A model generated the notes under the pieces. That model searched no databases. It was given only the letters and a program-made list of their open reading frames with translations, and had not been told where the DNA came from. The translations under genes were made by a program, and so were the position numbers. A stretch of DNA of 64,000 bases from Sialis fuliginosa. Taxonomy: Eukaryota > Arthropoda > Insecta > Megaloptera > Sialidae. Each line of letters starts with the position of its first letter. Position 1 is the first letter of the stretch. The stretch spans positions 7,380,501 through 7,444,500 of the forward strand of contig OY540819.1 of NCBI GenBank assembly GCA_961205875.1, written 5' to 3'. This document shows, in pieces, positions 1,601-63,436 of the stretch.

Positions 1601-3230
1601 AACTATGCAAAATCACTCAAAAACTTCAACGAAAATGTCGATGAATAATATCAACAAGGCTGAAAATTCAGTGATACTAAAAACTCTCTGCTATTTCAAA
1701 TTCGGTAAAACTGGACACTTAATTTTATTTTGTCTAACAAGGCGTTTTAAGATTAGAAAATTCATTTGCGCAGAGATTCATTGATATTAGTTTATACACG
1801 GGCGAAGCCGCTGAGAAATTCTGATACATAAATATTCACAAATGTTAATTATTGGGTTCTTGTTTTAGTTGAATTTAAATGCAAACGTTAGTATTTTTAA
1901 TTACTGAAAACAATCGTTACAAACATAATTTAATTTGTTTGAAGCTAGTTTAATACGTAGTTATATGTATTTTCAGGGCCAACAATGTTGTTAAGGATTT
2001 ATTTAAATGAACGTATTTTAAATAATGCAATCGCTTTGAAATTCGTGAATGGAATGAAAAAGATAAAAAAAGCCGTTGTCCGAGTGGGTTATTTACTTCG
2101 TTTTATTTTTGTTCGATAATGGTTATTTAAATTATACCTCTGTTATTTTAAACTTATTCAAATTTAATTTATAGTTGGTACAATTGAAACGCTAGTACAT
2201 ATACCATGTAGATAAAATAATTAATAAATAACTGTAGATACAGTTTTCAATTACGTAAATATGATTCATTTGGTTTCAACAGCCATACGAATTTACTTGT
2301 ACTTATTATAATTCATAATTACATATTATTTAGATTATTAAGTTATTCGAAGATTCAAAGAGGTTCAAAGAAGAAACATTAAAACGATTTAAATATTTTT
2401 ATTCGAATCAATTTTTCAATATTAATTTTTTTTAAACTATACTAATAAAGTTTGCTGATTTTAAAATTTATCTGTAATAAAAATATACTTTCTGAACTAA
2501 ATATTTTATTCAAATTTTTTTATTTTTTTATAGAAAATAACAATTTCTTTTATTCAATTAACTAACCTAAACTAATTCTGCGTTTAATGCTTCAGAACAG
2601 TGAAATCCCATCAAAATCTGTTCAATAGTTATTGTTTCAAGTCGAAGCAAATAGATAAAAAATTTAAAAACTATTAAAATGGATTATATTACTAGTAAAC
2701 AACGTGAAAAAAAATTAAACTGTATAGACAGAATCTACAGATTGATAATCAAAAAGGTTTAGGTACATTATAATATATAAAAAAATATATTTGAGAATTT
2801 CATATAATTAGTATCAACTTATCGTAATACGATAATTATATCATTTACATAAATATTCCGGACATAATCTGCGTGGGCGGAACCGGATGTGACAAACCCT
2901 TACCCCCGCTTAAACTCTAACAGTAATAAGGATTTGCACACTACATTTACCCTCCTATATCTAATTTACTTTAGTGCACATTTAAAGTCTGCAAAATCGG
3001 CATTGTAATTATTTTGATATTTAATAAAACGTTAAAGTAAGACGACAAATGTTACAAGTATATATCATATTTTGATATTAAACAGTTTAGATGAAAATCG
3101 AATTTTATATTAACTCATTTAATATTATATTATATATTGTTTGATATAATATAACTTGATTACATTCTTTTAAGTTTTTTGTAAAATGTCTTATTATATT
3201 TTAAAAAAGTGATCAAAAGAAGTACATATA
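1601..3230. other. Intergenic A+T-rich DNA
   Basis: No gene seen. The only recognisable piece is a short degenerate repeat end near 1,797. A less A+T-rich patch at about 2,860-2,940 has no identifiable structure. Confidence 0.5.
1797..1825. repeat. Short repeat remnant, copy 1
   Basis: ACACGGGCGAAGCCGCTGAG resembles the hairpin module near Helitron 3' ends (ACGGGCGAAGCCG). A diverged partner lies at 4,993-5,022, and both continue into GAAAATTC-like sequence. Only the end is left. Confidence 0.35.
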
Positions 3231-4177
3231 GGGGAGAGGTGCTGCAGTTGAAACACGGCGTCAATTGAAACGTTTTAAAAATAATATCTACTAGTGGTCA
3301 TAAATAAAAGCTTTATATCATCTGAGTTAGCTAATGTGTTACTGCTTTAGCGACCGAGTCGGCGCTACTATTCTGTCAAATGAGTTTTGAAAATTTAAGA
3401 ATTAGGTGAGAATTAGTGTTTTTTCAGTTGAAGTTTTATTTTTAAATACGAATATATTTTTGGATTACACAGTCAAAAATCATTTCTCGTTAATAATATT
3501 TGGTTAGTAGATTGATATAGAAGCAGAAATGTATAGAGCTATGTGTTTTTAATCAATTTACAATTATTTAAATTTGGTGTACATTGTGTTACATTTTTCG
3601 AACTAGACTGCAATTGAAACTATTTAGAATGCATCGGTTGAAATATGTTTCATCCGACACCCGCAGAGCCGTAACTAGAGGCTCGGGGGCCCCGTGGCAA
3701 CAAGTGACCGAGGGGCCCCCAGTATATACAAAATACCTTTTTTTTCGTTGAATTTTATACTTTTTTGATTTTGCAAAAGTTGCAAAGTGAATAATATTAT
3801 CTCAAAAGAATTACCCCACTTGTTTTTAAGATTTTAAGGGGAATTTAATTTTTTTGTATTGATTTTATGTCAAATAATAATTATAATTTATCATTAATAA
3901 AAATTATTTCATTTAATTTGTTCCTTATTTTCCTTTTTTATTGAAAAAAAATATATGTTTCAATTGACGCTTTCTCGGCGTCATTTGAAACACTCTCCTT
4001 GACTCTACTTTAGATCAATTTCTACATACACTGGTTAATATTTTGAGAAATTTTGTTTGGTGATTAGAAGTTTAATAGAAAGACTATATTGTGTCCAAAT
4101 TTGAAATAATTACTAATTAAAATAACAAAGATATCATCGAAAACCCAAAAACTGTTTCAATTGCAGCACCTATCCCC
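3231..4177. mobile_element. TA-target DNA transposon with subterminal TTGAAAC motifs
   Basis: Inverted ends: left GGGGAGAGGTGCTGCAGTTG, right (reverse complement) GGGGATAGGTGCTGCAATTG, each flanked by TA. A CAATTGAAAC-like motif recurs about eight times, mostly near the ends (near 3,247, 3,263, 3,426, 3,610, 3,635, 3,957, 3,981, 4,153) and in both orientations, as expected for transposase-binding sites. There is no transposase frame, so it is nonautonomous. It shares its architecture with 25,177-25,938 and perhaps 54,387-56,309. A GC-rich piece at about 3,657-3,725 looks inserted. The TA target fits Tc1/mariner-type elements; the exact family is not established. Confidence 0.75.
3657..3725. 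repeat. GC-rich insertion fragment
   Basis: CAGAGCCGTAACTAGAGGC followed by GGGGGCCCC and GGGGCCCCC stands out in an A+T-rich element. It resembles one end of a hAT-type MITE (start CAGAG), but no opposite end or target duplication was found, so it is called a fragment. Confidence 0.35.
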
Positions 4178-14284: not shown

Positions 14285-15113
14285 CTAGCTGGGCCCACGC
14301 GGCTTCGCTCGCGTAGACTACGGAATTATTGTTTAGGATTTTTGAAAAATATAGTTTAATTAATTAAGTACAAACACGATTAGTTATTATTGTAATAATA
14401 ATTTATCAATACCTAAATTACCTAACAAAAACGAATCAGAAGAAAAAAGTACAAATAATTTGTGTTCTGTTTAAATTTAAATGTTAATTATTGAAAACAA
14501 AATAAACACAAACGATCAGCCGAGGGACTCCGAATATCTACCGAGCGTACGCGAATCCAGTCTGATGTACTCGCTTCGATGCGGCACGATACCATACATT
14601 TAAGATATTATCTTTATAAATATATTTTAAGATATTTTCTAAACTATACGACCAAATTGGATGCTGTAAATGGCAAACTATATCTACATTAAGTACTTAT
14701 GACGATGAAATCATTTATTTCGATAAGGATTAATGTTTTGCAGCTCATAAGTCCATGTAAACAAAACCCAAATATTTTATGTTTTCTTTGTAACATAAAA
14801 GCAGTCATTGTGGCTTAAATATAAAAGTTAGACATATCGTGTCGCTGACTTAATTGTAGAACTTTTGATTCTACACAATTCTTTAATACATTATTTTGTT
14901 CTATATTGAACGGTTTAGGCAGCGTATTACAAAACAGCGCGCCGACGGCAAAATTTTTTCCGACTTGATTTACTATTATCGTCACTGCTTTGTTGTTATG
15001 TTACCTAACGTAAAAAAATATAGCCTATAACCTGACCAGAGAACGTACCTATGAATTAAAAAAAAAAACTCGTAAATCGGATAAGTGGTTCTCGAGTGAT
15101 AAGGTAACTAACG

Positions 15114-15163
<50 letters not shown>

Positions 15164-15195
15164 GAGACGTTGAGCTTTATATATATTAAGGATGA
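14285..15195 (-). mobile_element. Nonautonomous Helitron, complete
   Basis: Read on the minus strand it starts A|TCATCCTTAATATATATAA and ends with a hairpin (ACGCGAGCGAAGCCGCG) followed by CCCAGCTAG|T. TC start, 3' hairpin, CTAG end and an A/T insertion site are the Helitron signatures. Near the 5' end is a (GTCT)n run. It has no Rep/helicase coding, so it is nonautonomous. A truncated relative ends at 17,708; both share GCAGTGACGATAATAGT. Confidence 0.85.
15113..15163. repeat. (GACA)n microsatellite
   Basis: About twelve GACA units inside the Helitron, near its 5' end. Tetranucleotide runs of this kind probably grow from the short CTGTCTGTC module that several insect repeat families carry. 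Confidence 0.9.
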
Positions 15196-17439: not shown

Positions 17440-17708
17440 AATACTTTTACGGCGCAAACCAAATTGAACTAATTGTGTTAATCTCGTGATCCTCACGATA
17501 GAAATTGATTAATATTTTTTTATGCATAGGATAAATTTTCTTACGTTAGGTAAGATAAGGGATAAGCAGTGACGATAATAGTAAATCAAGTTAGAAAAAA
17601 AGTAAATATCTCGATTCCTCCTAAAACCCCCACTGAAACTAATTACAACCCTTCATATGTGACAAGGGGTGAAATAACTCCCGTGCAAAGCCGGGGCGAG
17701 ATCGCTAG
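17440..17708 (+). mobile_element. 5'-truncated Helitron relative
   Basis: Ends with CCCGTGCAAAGCCGGGG (short CCCG/CGGG stem) and GATCGCTAG|T, a Helitron 3' terminus. Upstream it shares TTACGTTAGGTAA and GCAGTGACGATAATAGT with the complete Helitron at 14,285-15,195. No 5' TC end was found; the left boundary is approximate. Confidence 0.65.
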
Positions 17709-33999: not shown

Positions 34000-34448
34000 A
34001 GGTACTGGCACCAGCCTTGTATTAGAAATATTTGTTGATATTTGATTACTGCCATTACTGAATCATAATCTATAGAATAGACACTTAACTGTAAAACAGC
34101 TTAATTTGATGACAACTTAACTAATTTAAACTAATTATTAGTGTAATTTATTTATTAATTAATATATAATCATAACATCTGCTTTACATTGTTTCAAATT
34201 TTACGATTCTTAATTTTATAACTTTTGTGTTATATTAAGTGTCCATCATTGGTTTTACTTTATCCATTGCTGGAAATAGATAATCAAAATAAAAAGCTAT
34301 AATTAAAAAAAAACTATATTTGCGGACTTTGGCAATTAAATTGATTTTATTAGTAACATGAGTTCATGAGAATTAAAAAAAAGAATCCAATCAATCTCAA
34401 AAACAGTATAACTTGATCTTAAAGGGACCAAGACTGGTACCAGTACCT
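34000..34448 (+). mobile_element. MITE family A, uninterrupted copy
   Basis: TA|AGGTACTGGCACCAGCC at the left and CTGGTACCAGTACCT|TA at the right. Four copies occur in the window (also 43,555; 56,663-61,186; 62,936 inverted). They share GATTACTRCCATT, TTTACATTGTTTCAAAT, ACTTTATCCATT and GCGGACTTTGG blocks. Its ACTAATTATTAGTGTAA stretch is an uninterrupted reference for the Helitron target site. TA target; noncoding. Confidence 0.9.
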
Positions 34449-34450
34449 TA

Positions 34451-34954
34451 TGAACAATTGGTATTTATTTCATTCTAATGTCGGGTTCGTTTTATTTGTA
34501 TAATCAAAATGGAAATTTAACGAAAAGTGTTAACAACTATACAAATTTACATATATACCCTCTACATATATTCAAATTTTATATGTGTATATCTGAATAA
34601 ACACAGATACTCTGTAAATCTGCCAAATAGACGAGACAGAATTTGACAAGCCAAAAAACAAAATCAATCTTCGAACACTTTCTAGCGCAAATGAGTTCTG
34701 TAAAATGAAATGGTTGGTTAGTATGTCTCATTTTGACAAATTATGTTTCACTTGTTTTTTGAGATTTCAATACAAAACACTTTGATCTATAGAATTTTAA
34801 ATTTTTCAAACGTTGTTGAAAACAGTTTTAAGAGAGAATCAATCATAGCAATATGAATTGTCAACTGCCTAATTATACGAAACTTTGTTTATATTATTTC
34901 TTATAATGATTATTTTAATAGGAATATATTTTTTTATAATTATCTATATTACAG
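34451..34954. other. Possible intron sequence before the candidate exon
   Basis: No repeat or frame of note. The last 40 bases form a pyrimidine-rich tract leading to ATTACAG. Confidence 0.35.
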
Positions 34955-43554: not shown

Positions 43555-44295
43555 AGAATTGACACCAACCTTGAATCATACCCCAGTATTGGATTCTTGT
43601 TTAATGAATGTACTAATTTAGAAATATTTGTAGATTATTTGATTACTATCATTATTGAATCATAATCCATAGACACTTAACTGTAAAATAGCGTACTTTG
43701 ATGATAATCGGCTAATGGGTGTTAAAATGGTGGACTTAAAGTAATTATTAGTGTAATGTATTTATTAACTACTATATTATCATAGCATTTGCTTTAAATT
43801 ATTTCAAAATTTACGAACTTTTGTGTCGTAGTACTTATCATTTTGTAATCATCATCATACTGGTTTTACTTTATCCATTACTGGAGGAAAAAAAAGTTTA
43901 AATTTAAAAAACAGACTATATTTGCGGACTTTGGTAATTAAATTGATTTAATAAAGAGGTAGTTATTTTATTATTAACAACAAAAATAACATAATGAACT
44001 ACATGAGAAATGCTGAAAATCTCTATCTAATAATGTATGATTGTTTTCTAAAAGTAGATTGTTTTTGTTTTTGTTTTTTTTTTTATTTACTGAGGAAGTC
44101 TAAAATGACGAAACGTTTAAATAAATAATGTTATAACACGTATAACTGTTTTAATGACCTAAAACCTCGAAGAAAACAAAACAAAATAAAATTTATTATT
44201 AACTTGAATTCATGAGAATTACAAAAAAGAAGCGCATCAATCCGCAAAAACAGTATACCTTGTTCTTAAAGGATCCAAGACTGGTGCCAGTACCT
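43555..44295 (+). mobile_element. MITE family A, copy split by a SINE-like insert
   Basis: The left end is diverged (TA|AGAATTGACACCAACC); the right end is good (CTGGTGCCAGTACCT|TA). The interior is collinear with 34,000-34,448. At 43,979-44,191 it is interrupted by a retroposon. Confidence 0.85.
43979..44191 (+). mobile_element. SINE-like retroposon with 12-bp duplication
   Basis: Flanked by perfect TTTATTATTAAC at 43,967-43,978 and 44,192-44,203. It ends in an A-rich tail (ACAAAACAAAATAAAA). A near-identical 210-bp copy sits at 56,791-57,000 in another family A MITE at a different position. No tRNA-type A/B boxes were recognised, so it may be a 5'-truncated LINE or Penelope-like end rather than a true SINE. 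It contains CTGAGGA-N13-GAAAC. Confidence 0.8.
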
Positions 44296-54892: not shown

Positions 54893-55253
54893 TTTTATCG
54901 AAAATGTACAAAAGTGCCCCACAAGAGGGGCAGTAAAGGTCATAAAATAATGTTTTAATTAGGCATTAAAAAAATAATTATAAGTAAACTAAAATAATTA
55001 GTAAATTCTGTAGTAACATAAGCAAATGGAAAACATTTTATTTACAATAAATAATGTTTTTATAATTTATTTTATAATCCAGACTACCATTTGGTTAACA
55101 CTGTCCAACAGTGACCCGTATTTTTGTCCCAAAGTACCCCGACTGAAAACTGTTAATAAAAACCTCTATCAACTTTTTTTTGGGTAGGTTTAACGAATAA
55201 TCGACACTACTAAAGTACAGCATAACATTACATGTTTTTAACATGTTTAATAA

Positions 55254-56270
55254 CACCGGCACACAAAAAAAATTAAGAAGAATGTGCATTTGACCGGACC
55301 TACCTACGGGTACGTATTTTGGTCCGCTGAATCCGAATTCGAGGTCAGTTTGACCCCTACACCCTCGAAATTTCGAGAAAACTTCGAAAATCCGTAAAAA
55401 TGATGAAAATCGGCAGTTTTAATGATAAAAAATTTTTTTGGAACTGAACTAAGCGTGATTTTCATGTATTTCGATCCGCTGAATATGAATCGAAACTTTA
55501 TTGAGACCACGAGCCATTTCAAATGTGAAAAAATCACACAAAACTCTCGAAAATTCCGAAAAAAAATGAAGAAAAAAAAAAGAGAAGTACCCGAAGAAAA
55601 TCGTAAACGAAAGAGGAATCCACTACGAAGATCATTTGAGGATAAAAGAGTGCGATACAAACGAAGGAAAGTTTAGGATTCGTAAAAATCATTTATTTCT
55701 ATCTTTTTATGTCTTGTGTTTTTCACAGATTTCAAGTTATTTGCTATATCTACGTTATAGAGTATTTATTTTAGGCATTAAATCATGTTCAATCAATTTT
55801 TTTTCTGTTATGAATGGTAATTTTTACAATTTTTTCGAATTTTTCCAGCTTTAGAGGGTGAATAGACAAAAAAAATTAAGATGCGAATTGAAGACATCAA
55901 AAGATATAAAATTTTATCTGAATTGGACCAGAAAAAGTTTTTTTTATCATGAAAACTATATTTTTTCGGAATTTTCGAGAGTTTTGTGTGATTTTTCACA
56001 TTTGAAATGGCTCGTGGTCTCAATAAAGTTTCGATTCATATTCAGCGGATCGAAATACATGAAAATCACGCTTAGTTTAGTTCCAAAAAATTTTTTTATC
56101 ATTAAAACTGCCGATTTTCATCATTTTTACGGTTTTTCGAAGTTTTCTCGAAATTTCGAGGGTGTAGGGGTCAAACTGACCTCGAATTCGGATTCAGCGG
56201 ACCAAAATACGTACCCGTAGGTAGGTCCGGTCAAATGCACATTCTACTTAATTTTTTTTGTGTGCCGGTG
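55254..56270. mobile_element. 1-kb foldback element with TAA duplication
   Basis: CACCGGCACACAAAAAAAAT at 55,254 and its inverse ending CGGTG at 56,270, flanked by TAA on both sides. The arms are about 315 bp (to about 55,570 and from about 55,955) and nearly identical; a centre of about 385 bp has its own weaker pairing. The 3-bp TAA target fits PIF/Harbinger-type elements, which is an inference. The 118- and 120-codon frames on opposite strands end in the same peptide because they read the two arms. Confidence 0.88.
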
Positions 56271-56309
56271 TAATGATTCTAGAATCCAAAATTTCCCACT
56301 GTGCCCCAC

Positions 56310-57000: not shown

Positions 57001-58442
57001 TCTATATACATATATACATTTAACTGTATTACAGCGTGATTTGATGACAATCGGCTAATAGGTGTCAAAATGGTGACAATTTACACTAATCTACTATATA
57101 TAATGAAGTGCCCTGACTCACTGATAATCATTTTTTTGACCATTTCCACTCATCGGAGAACCTTGAAATTTGGTATATACATTCCTTGGGGGTAAAAAAT
57201 AACAACTAGTGGGCCTTTTTTGAAAAAGTTCATAAATGGGGTGACAAGGGGCCCCCAATTTTTCAAAAAAAAAGTTAGAATTTTTTAATTATTTTTTTTA
57301 TATTCCTTGGGCGATATAATGTAAGGTTCAAATTTCAGATTTAAAAAAAAATAAAAAAAAAGGAAAAAAAAAGTTTTGATGTAAAAAAGTATCAAAACGA
57401 AAACCGATATTAGATTTTTTTAATTTTTTTCAAATACTTTGGTTAATTGACAACCATGAACCCGTGTCTGATTTTTGAAAAAGATATGTTAAAGAGGAGA
57501 AAATAAACAAAATACGTTTACATATAATGCGCTTTAAGCATTTACTAAATTAATTGCAAATGTCGTAACTATGGATACATTATATTTTATTGATTATTTT
57601 AAAAAAATTTAAATGTCAGTGGCCATTTAAAATTTTGAAGTGAACAATAAAATATAACAAAAAAGAAATATAAAGAACATAACGAATGAAAAAATATGCA
57701 CAACTCTAATGTAATATATAATTAAAATTTTCATAAATAAATTTGACAAAAAAATTGAAGACAAACAATTACAGCATTCGGACACAATTCGACCAACATT
57801 CGGCGATAGATATGTGTTCCCGGTACAAATAAAAATTAAGTATATAATGACATTTTTTTAATCTTAAGTCATTGAATTATCAATATTTTTACTTTCATAG
57901 GTATAGGTATTTTATTATATTTATTTGTAATCATAAATATCAGAAGAATTTATATAATTTCAAATTAACATTGTAATTTTAAATGATATTATTTTAATTG
58001 TTGTTTGAAACTGTATATCTGTCATCTTTACCCAATGTACTAACCTAAAATGTACATTTACAAAATTAAAACAAGATGTTGATTTATTGCAAATTGTTAC
58101 GAAAGCTTCATTCAATTGACAAGACCTATATTTGATTGTAATTAATTAATTAATTGTACAAAGGGTGTACGAGTATCTACAAGAGCTAATAATGTATTTA
58201 TATAGACACATTGATGAATTTTTGAAAGACACGAGCAGAAAAACCAAAAATGAAATTATGTATTTTTAATATTCATAAAATGTTCAAATCATGTAAGTAC
58301 ATGATGTAATACAATACATGTACCAGAAGTCATAAAATAATTTTTTGTCGTTGTCATATCAGAAACAAATGTCATAATATGTATTTAGTATGCAATATAT
58401 TTTCATACGACAAGAGTTGAAAACGCATCGTAAACAAATATA

Positions 58443-58731
58443 CAGGTAATCCTCGACTTATAATTGTCTTTGTCTCTTTCTTACATGCACATATTACATA
58501 AATGAAACAAACAGTTCCGGGAATTTCCCAAAAATGTAATTTATTATTATTTATGTAGATATTTTTGGGAACCCGCAACTGTTTGTTATGTATAGAAAAT
58601 GCGATTCGCTTCACATCAAGGAAAACGTCCAAAGCAAAAATATGTACATATTGTACGTGTTAACTTACAACTTATTCTATTTACGATCGATGTTTAGAAA
58701 CCTATCTCGGTTGTAAGTCGAGGAATACCTG
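58443..58731. mobile_element. pogo-type MITE carried inside the Helitron
   Basis: TA|CAGGTAATCCTCGACTTA at the left and TAAGTCGAGGAATACCTG|TA at the right. 289 bp, noncoding. The 86-codon minus-strand frame overlapping it is not recognised. Confidence 0.8.
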
Positions 58732-59726
58732 TACTACGATATATAACGTATGTCTTATCAGTTTAAGCGTAAAAAATATCAAAGTTAATATTCAATGTTT
58801 TTAAATGCTGCGAGAAGTTCAAACATGCTTGACTGATTTAAATTTACTTTTTTCCTTATTTTATATATTACTTACAAAATAACCAAGACGTTCCATTAAA
58901 ATTTCAGGATTTGTGAAGTGTTCTGTCGTAGGAAAAGTTTAGGAAGCACTGTTCTACATCATACTTCAATATCAACCAAATTGAGTTATTGAGGGTAAAA
59001 AATATATTGAAAAAACCTCATAGAGAAACCATATTTAGTTTGTGCAATAAAGTTTTAACAGGTACGATTTTTCTAAAATATCTTAAAATTAATAAAATTA
59101 AAATTGATAAAAACCCAGCTCTAATGAATAAATAAGAAAGCACTCCGTCACAGCACTATATTATTCCGTCGCGGGAAAGTACCTACCATATAGGCCAGTC
59201 AGGATCCACTCAGGGCTAGCTACGTCACTGGTTACGATACTATATTATTGTTGGTTACGATATTTCATAAAACAGATATCGTTGCTTAGAATACATTGTC
59301 TGGAGGAATACGATAAAAGTTTTAACAGATTTTTTAGCGGAAAAGAGAATTTTGTCGCTTATATATGAGATTTTTAGAATCGATAACTCAATTTCGCAAA
59401 AAGTGTATCTTACGATACTTTGCCTTGGAGGGGACGATATAGAAATAATTTAACCAGGTATGTTATAATTTAGGTATATAAAAACATAGTACCTAGCCAT
59501 GGAATACGGAATTTTATAATTTACGGTTTCAATATTTTATTTTATTAATTTAGGTTACTATGATTATGTCTCTTTAAAATATTTTGTCGAACAATTAAAT
59601 GATTTTTGACACATATTAACAATTAAATATTTTGAAATGCCTATATTGATTGAAAATTTAAATATGAAGAAACATTTCACTTCTATGAAAGGTAAAATAT
59701 CGAAATTAATTATTAGGTTTGGTGTA

Positions 59727-59803
59727 AATTTTTCGAAACACAATTTTTCGAATCACAATTTTTCAAATCAAAATTCTTCGAATGAACAATTTTTCGAAAA
59801 ATT
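59727..59803 (+). repeat. 15-bp tandem repeat
   Basis: About five imperfect units of AATTTTTCGAAACAC. In frame it would encode an FSNHN-type repeat within a 64-codon frame at 59,637-59,831, probably without function. Confidence 0.75.
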
Positions 59804-59875
59804 TAAGTTTTATTGTTCAAATTTTAATTAGTTAATAAAATATTAAGTAAAGTAATATTTGGACATTTTACGATA

Positions 59876-60829
59876 TCCATACTAATATTATAAATGCGAA
59901 AGTGTGTTTGTCTGTCTGTTTTCTGTTTGTTACCTTTTCACGGCTAAACCGCTTTACCGATTTTGATGAAATTTGGCAGTGAGATAGCTTGCATCCCGAG
60001 GACGGACATAGGCTATTTCGTATCTTAAAAATTCAACCCCTAAGAAATTGCAAGGGGGTAGAAATTTTTTAATTTTTTTTAGTAATTATTATTTTACCCC
60101 CCGATACATATGAAGGGTTGTAAGTGGTTTTATTCGATCCGGCGGGAAAAATACCACGGGGGCGTAGGTTTTAGGGGGCAAAACAACCCTCTATCTCGCA
60201 TAGGAGCCGAGATATTTACGATTTTGTATAATGAAAGAAAACTAAAAATAAGAAAAATTTAATATTTTACCCCCTGTCACATATGAAGAGTTGTAATTGA
60301 TTACATTCGATCTGGCGGGCAAAAATACTACGGAAGAGGGATTATTAGGGGGACAAAACAACCCCTTATCTTACATAGGAGTCGCGACTTATATTATAAA
60401 TGCGAAAGTGTATCTCTCAGTCTGTCTATTTGTTACCTGTTCACGACTAAACTGCTTTACCGATTTTGATGAAATTTGGCAGTGAGATGGCTTACATCCC
60501 AAGGACGGATTAAGGCTATTTCATATCTCGAAAATTCAACCCCTAAGGAATTGCAAGGGGGAGGAAAATTTTAAATTTTTTTTAATAATTAATATTTTAC
60601 CCGTTACATATGAAGGGTTGTAAGTGGTTTTATTCGATCCAGCGGGAAAAATACCACGGGGGTGGGGGTTTTAGGGCGGAAAAACCCCTCTATCTCGCAT
60701 AGGAGCCGACACATTTACGATTTTGTATAATTAAAGAAAACTAAAAATAAGATAAATTTAATATTTTACCCCCTGTCACATATGAAGGGTTTCGAAATCC
60801 ACGCGAGCGAAGTCGCGGGTAGCAGCTAG
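59876..60829 (+). mobile_element. Inner Helitron with duplicated body
   Basis: A|TCCATACTAATATTATAAATG starts a typical insect Helitron with a GTCTGTCTG run, CTAAACCGCTTTACCG and GATGAAATTTGGCAG; it ends at the shared CTAG (60,829). The body is present twice: the AATTTGGCAGTGAGAT block at 59,970 recurs at 60,472, each followed by CCCCTAAG-AATTGCAAGGGGG and CCACGGGGG.G blocks. The second unit lacks the 5' TCC start. Confidence 0.8.
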
Positions 60830-62935: not shown

Positions 62936-63436
62936 AGGTACTGGCACCAGTTATGGCCGCTATAAGAGCAAGGTTTATTGTTTTTGTAATTGTTGGCTTT
63001 AATCAATTTAATTACCAAAGTCCGAAAATATAGTTTGTTTTTTAAATTAAAGCCTTTTATCTTGTTTATGTTTTTATCCAGTAATGGATAAAGTAAAACC
63101 AGTAATGATTACGCAGTAATGGCCACTTGCTAATGATTACAAAATGATAAGTACTACGATACAAAATATATAAAAGAAAGAAGCGTCAAATTTGAAACAA
63201 TGTAAAGCAGTTGCTATGATAATATAATAATTAATAAATAAATTATACTAATAATTAGTTTAAATATCTACCATTTTGACACCTATTGGCCGATTGTCAT
63301 CAAATCACACTGTAAGACAGTTAGATTCATATTCAGAAATAGAAGTAATCAAATATCAACAAATATTTCTTATTCGGTACATTTAATTTACAAATAGCCA
63401 TTACTGGGGTCATATCCAAGACTGGTATCATTACGT
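62936..63436 (-). mobile_element. MITE family A, inverted copy
   Basis: TA|AGGTACTGGCACCAG at the left; the opposite end is decayed (CTGGTATCATTACGT|TA). The interior is the reverse complement of the other copies and includes an uninterrupted ACTAATTATTAGTATAA (read on the minus strand), the empty form of the Helitron site. Confidence 0.85.

Follow-up and report, generated by a model that had tools for sequence, protein, structure and literature searches.

As summarized in Table 1, the 64,000-bp stretch of Sialis fuliginosa contig OY540819.1 analysed here (the window) contains a 3,740-bp insert that begins with TCTACTATATATAATG, ends with GCAGCTAG (TC...CTAG) and lacks a target duplication. 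The insert is flanked by ...TTTACACTAA (ACTAA) on the left and TTATTAGT on the right, and the rejoined flanks give ACTAATTATTAGT, an exact match to the uninterrupted target repeat. The initial annotation had fixed the insert to the base between A and T, and the rejoined flanks and empty sites agree with it exactly; its count of two uninterrupted target sites in the window was low, three copies being present.

Table 1. Features of the insert and of its target repeat (positions in the window).
Feature	Coordinates	Strand	Evidence
Empty-site copy of target repeat (site near 34.13 kb)	34067..34470	+	uninterrupted in the window
Empty-site copy of target repeat (site near 43.74 kb)	43669..43978	+	uninterrupted in the window
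Whole H1 element, non-autonomous Helitron, TC...CTAG	57090..60829	+	empty sites; 23 full copies; junction at 303 exact places
Outer-lineage 5' end and body (H1 1-1351)	57090..58440	+	similarity to H2 and H4
MITE, 23-nt inverted ends starting TACAGGTAATCCTCGACTTATAA, TA on both sides	58441..58733	.	inverted pair; 23 full copies
1,079-bp segment common to H1 copies	58734..59812	+	compared with H4 tail and H2
Repeat M left terminal arm, at least 63 bp	59813..59875	+	95% to M copy L054
Inner Helitron, TCC...CTAG	59876..60829	+	free-standing relatives L040, L049; same base in M at L055/L056
Terminator, CTAG end	60795..60829	+	372 exact genome places of CGCGARCGAAGTCGCGGGTAGCAGCTAGT, control 0
Empty-site copy of target repeat (site near 63.25 kb)	62998..63332	-	uninterrupted in the window

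The termini were those of a Helitron (5' TC, 3' CTRR), as TC...CTAG delimits the window copy and 22 other full copies align with it from the first base to the last. Insertion between A and T, evident from the exact empty site, was likewise observed in the fetched DNA, where A preceded 37 of 41 distinct outer 5' ends, the remaining four adjoining the CTAG of a tandem neighbour, and T followed the inner-type CTAG in all 41 distinct ends (two of them tandem). An assembly join at 60,829, which the initial annotation had named as a possible objection, is very unlikely to be the source of the insert, because 14 of the 20 loci fetched as best matches hold the whole 3,740 bp intact, as a single match, at different places and between other flanks.

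Within the insert, hereafter H1, the inverted-ended MITE reported in the initial annotation, which labelled it pogo-type, was found, its 23-nt inverted pair (58,441-58,463 and 58,711-58,733) being 91% complementary with TA at each outer edge. The second Helitron 5' end, TCCATACTAATATTATAAATG, was likewise present at 59,876 with A in front. The inner Helitron contains an internal duplication (59,881-60,292 and 60,387-60,791, 89%), and its terminator carries a stem, CGCGA/TCGCG, at 60,802-60,806 and 60,813-60,817, ending 12 bp before the 3' end; the fold of the terminator was not better than that of shuffled sequence (z -0.46). No open frame of at least 120 aa was present in H1, no Rfam match was obtained at the gathering threshold, and a search of viral contigs with both 5' ends, from which records near this genome were possibly left out, returned 0 matches. 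Elsewhere in the window, short inner-Helitron-like fragments were seen at 17,634-17,677 and 15,074-15,189 (-), and a 183-bp inverted repeat (55,250-55,432 and 56,092-56,274, 98% identical) has open frames in both arms with a long near-identical peptide in common.

The assembly itself (392 Mb, 20 contigs) was searched with the first 311 bp of the insert, which yielded 773 first-look candidates, the 40 scored being full-length matches at 98-100%. Twenty stretches were fetched around the best matches to the outer 5' end. In this selected sample, the whole 3,740 bp aligned as one piece in 14; two (L017, L022) were H1 with internal insertions or deletions, one (L010) held an H1 match that was interrupted and also cut by the end of the piece, two (L011 and L012) were overlapping pieces of one array, and one (L026) was a different element, H2. 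An unselected sample was formed by the first 20 terminators listed on contig C1, apart from the one already fetched in L021, and comprised 14 H1, three H2, two H3 and one inner-type mini-Helitron of 181 bp; eight of these 14 H1 were full-length, the others (L029, L032, L043, L044, L046, L047) being rearranged, expanded or 5'-truncated. Genome-wide, the outer/inner junction of H1, ATTTTACGATA followed directly by TCCATACTAATATTATAAATG, occurred at 303 exact places (154 + 149; control 0). This is not a count of H1 elements, because at least two of the places (C1:1,911,567 and C1:31,806,732) lie by position in composites of repeat M and the inner Helitron and L043 holds two H1 junctions; as far as sampled, nearly all are H1.

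The 23 full H1 copies, including the window copy, differed pairwise by 0.03-1.29% (median 0.81%), and the nearest to the window copy was L009 at 99.7%. The whole-length copies that the initial annotation had regarded as a sign of a mobile chimera were thus found, and the same 23 copies and 303 junction places ruled out its notion of a single event recorded at this locus, that is, that the chimera was formed here. H1 has two 5' termini and one 3' terminus that move as a unit, as in a composite Helitron, and the insert belongs, as a single copy, to a young and abundant family of non-autonomous Helitrons.

Helitrons of the inner type also stand free in the genome, with A before and T after each, as read in L049 (521 bp) and L040 (181 bp). 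L049 was 81% identical to the inner part of H1 over most of its length, and the two are divergent relatives rather than near-identical copies. Inner-type 5' ends in which the base before A is other than T occurred at 494 exact places (control 0), H3 copies among these, and this requirement excludes the H1 junction from the count. The last 42 bp of H1 matched L049 at 95%, whereas H2 matched just the last 35 bp, at 94%, and the 3' end of H1 is therefore nearer to the inner lineage; the 35-bp terminator itself is common to H2 and that lineage.

The bases ahead of the inner Helitron in H1 belong to a repeat, termed M, whose inverted terminal arms span about 70 bp (92%); an empty copy of it was read in L054. 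L055 and L056 are the two ends of one M copy containing the inner Helitron, and only these ends were read (93%). There, M runs up to ...TTTTACGATA and is followed by TCCATA..., the inner element, a decayed copy, ends with GCAGTTAG, and M resumes right after it with TATTTAATAAAC, the same as in the empty L054. In H1, at least 63 bp of the M left arm precede the inner Helitron at the same base as in L055/L056, and the alignments thereby establish a shared insertion site in M; H1 ends at the inner CTAG and therefore lacks the 306 bp of M that come next. The pre-inner bases TATTTGGACATTTTACGATA, when followed by T and a base other than C, occurred at 52 exact places and at 477 with up to one mismatch (H1 included; control 1), and the matches listed on C1 included inverted pairs about 280 bp apart (at least two) and 1.24-1.29 kb apart (at least four). 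Apparent M-plus-inner composites were noted at at least four places on C1 (1,910,335-1,911,607; 28,139,943-28,141,228; 31,805,512-31,806,772; 33,150,840-33,152,076, the last of them read at its two ends), as if the composite itself had moved or been duplicated.

The initial annotation had proposed a search for the outer 5' end with a terminus of its own, and such an element, H4, was found on contig C2. It is 3,757 bp long, combines the outer 5' end with its own terminator, GTAACACCGGGTCCAGCGCGCTAG followed by T, and has its right end fixed by an exact empty site in an H1 copy. This C2 copy of H1 is interrupted between bases 1,777 and 1,778 by a 7,433-bp insert made up of an H1 with H4 immediately after it; rejoining the site restores the H1 sequence exactly, with the A/T join between TTTATATA and TTACTTAC, a position that may shift by one or two bases with the copy. 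The stretch C2:21,792,383-21,798,096 (5,714 bp) comprises H4 and the right part (1,778-3,740) of the interrupted H1. The H4 terminator occurred at 571 genome places at up to two mismatches (283 + 288; control 0).

H1 was 88% identical to H2 over 1-942 and 86% identical to H4 over 1-933, with further H4 matches at 991-1,052, 1,050-1,213 and 1,238-1,349 (to 58,438; shuffle z 21.6 and 23.8), so that the H4 homology ends at the left edge of the MITE. The initial annotation had considered the approximately 2.8 kb between the two ends to be captured DNA throughout. This was an over-count, as 57,090 to about 58,438 (about 1.35 kb) shares homology with an outer-type element that has a terminator of its own; a foreign origin was shown only for the M left arm at 59,813-59,875. 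The segment at 58,734-59,812, compared as H1 1,645-2,722 with the last 684 bp of the one H4 copy, gave no significant similarity (z 0.8), which implies that the H1 founder was without the outer-lineage terminator; its similarity to H2 was weak (z 2.7; a single 79-bp match, E 2e-5).

Head-to-tail junctions with zero bases between CTAG and TCTACTATATATAAYGAAGTG were also observed, 38 of them exact genome-wide (control 0), for example in L011, L019, L024 and L025. In the arrays at C2:21,792,383, C3:32,870,804 and C5:35,298,578, among the matches listed, the H4 terminator lies 3,757, 3,757 and 3,760 bp on, which suggests recurrent H1-H4 pairs, the C2 pair having been read and the others being placed by position. 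Within the C2 H4 (L012:495-779), a 95-codon open stretch of the ribosome biogenesis gene BRX1 was noted (Pfam Brix, E 3e-19; BRX1 chain in PDB, E 3.5e-35), by its sequence a gene fragment carried by the Helitron, and an apparent inverted repeat, GGTGCGTTCCAG / CTGGAACGCACC, was seen by eye around it. The Rep/helicase transposase domain PF14214 gave 30 genome matches, 29 over the cut-off, with open frames of 1,660, 1,675 and 1,987 (twice) aa among them. No H1 ends were present in the 3 kb read around one autonomous Helitron locus (L052, L053). Among the matches listed, an exact H4 terminator lies 11.4-11.8 kb downstream on the same strand of at least three of the 30 (C9:1,083,925; C9:563,415; C12:952,310, minus), and an autonomous partner may therefore use the H4 end.

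Two further elements combine the outer 5' end with a borrowed terminator. H2 (3,661 bp) is without the inner segment and resembles H4 until about 10 bp from the H4 end, where it has ...CCCGGGTAACACCGGGTCCAATGTG in place of ...CCAGCGCGCTAG and no CTAG; it runs 487 bp past that position to a terminator whose last 36 bp are those of the mini-Helitron L040, and looks like a read-through product. H3 (1,951-1,975 bp in L036 and L039, with only the last 1.1 kb covered in L050 and L051) has about 1.0 kb of outer body joined straight to the inner element at a junction, AAA followed by TCCATAC, that differs from that of H1. The outer body of H3 matched H4 at 84.6% over 91 bp, the similarity ending about 5 bp short of the inner 5' end, and H3 looks like a nested-stop product. 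The outer 5' end is thus not always linked to the inner segment, as would be expected of one ordinary element: H2 lacks that segment in three of the 20 unselected terminators and in L026, and H4 pairs the same 5' end with another terminator.

Variation among the 23 full H1 copies was unevenly distributed along the element. The median pairwise difference was 1.49% over the outer 942 bp and 0.25% over the 409 bp after them; the MITE had a median of 0 (six single-copy variants), the 1,141 bp after it 0.35% and the inner part 1.26%. Variants present in at least four copies numbered 18, 0, 5 and 9 across four segments (chi-square p 1e-4). The outer and inner segments show mosaic combinations of variants. 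When the outer part was compared with seven sequences of H2, H3 and H4, into which the 5,714-bp C2 stretch was entered by its first 960 bp, belonging to H4, the minor allele was also found there for 17 of 30 shared variants versus 5 of 23 single-copy variants. A likely cause of the mosaic is exchange among related elements once the founder existed; some of it can be due to misalignment in A/T runs.

The best overall explanation, which we consider highly probable, is that H1 transposition begins at a 5' end of the outer lineage and finishes at another Helitron's terminator. The earlier reading that the outer 5' end and the inner 3' end stem from different Helitrons, with the element ending at the inner terminator, is supported. 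The inner Helitron would have inserted earlier into the TIR repeat M, and in the H1 founder, of which no copy was found, M with the inner Helitron would have lain within an outer element or on its downstream side. Starting from the outer 5' end, rolling-circle transposition up to the inner CTAG would have omitted the right part of M and whatever followed it, and the new TC...CTAG unit, competent with transposase in trans, would have multiplied, one copy reaching the A/T site in the window. The sequences show the chimera, its precise insertion and amplification, the common site in M and the separate terminator of the outer lineage, while the rolling-circle step, the transposase in trans and the founder route are what we infer here. 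The points against this explanation are that the free-standing inner relatives read are divergent, that the M-plus-inner copy was read at its two ends, that the terminal stem is no stronger than in shuffled sequence and that L052/L053 showed no H1 end in the 3 kb read. As to the route, the initial annotation had called H1 a read-through; the borrowed terminator is confirmed, and H1 itself fits read-through and an early nested stop alike. In a read-through, to which we would give about an even chance, the outer element would have lost its terminator and continued through the adjoining DNA as far as M and the inner Helitron. H2 appears to show this route, and bypass of the 3' end has been demonstrated experimentally for Helraiser (PMC4778049), although no source locus of 58,734-59,812 was found, which leaves the link from the outer body to M without explanation. 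It is also possible, though less likely, that M with the inner Helitron landed in an outer element which had kept its 3' end, and that the first terminator met was used, as H3 appears to show and as published for Fusarium Helitrons (PMC5148889); however, 58,734-59,812 would then be expected to resemble the H4 tail, and it did not in the one H4 copy compared.

Assembly of the pieces within a Helitron already present, through filler-DNA repair, gene conversion or recombination and not through the choice of a termination point, would accommodate the mosaic copies, their uneven shared variants and the outer variants held in common with H2, H3 and H4, and filler-DNA capture has been proposed for an insect Helitron (PMC6544945). 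The exact end at the inner CTAG and the loss of the remaining M are, however, explained directly by termination and not by repair, and we regard such an assembly as unlikely. That H1 is one ordinary Helitron in which the internal TCCATAC motif arose by chance is hardly credible: all parts do occur together as a unit in the 23 full copies, but inner-type Helitrons stand alone with their own A/T ends in L049 and L040, and the inner Helitron lies at the same base inside M in L055/L056, observations that ruled out a chance inner 5' motif.

Termination at a borrowed end, the preferred reading of H1, has parallels in earlier reports. Both of the routes considered have already been published (PMC4778049, PMC5148889), and H1 is a well-documented case of an established process rather than a new type of element. 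The case resembles that of Helraiser and HelibatN, in which the 3' end can be bypassed and a terminator further downstream used, and for which de novo 3' ends backed by empty sites are described in bats; Helraiser is an experimentally tested bat element, whereas H1 is known from sequence alone and took its new terminator from another Helitron (PMC4778049). The FoHeli composites of Fusarium oxysporum, with several 5' termini and one 3' terminus, were attributed to self-insertion and a stop at the first 3' terminus; H1 likewise has an outer and an inner 5' end with a single 3' end, but differs in that it joins two Helitron lineages, has its inner insertion site marked by repeat M and shows its junction at about 300 places (PMC5148889). 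By its termini only, the inner element resembles the Hel-2 insect Helitrons, which have a TCC start, a CTAG end and A/T flanks (PMC4344730).

With its empty site, inner relatives, M donor arrangement, outer relative and hundreds of daughters, H1 provides an unusually complete natural record of a Helitron gaining a new end, and it indicates that such a chimera can grow into a large family. Products of both published routes appear to be present in one genome. Tentatively, and with more doubt than confidence, one 5' lineage may have swapped its terminator for those of another Helitron lineage at least three separate times (H1, H2 and H3), by both routes, with strong amplification of the swapped forms, as if a foreign terminator suited the resident transposase better. 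If this is true, Helitron terminators would be interchangeable modules under selection.
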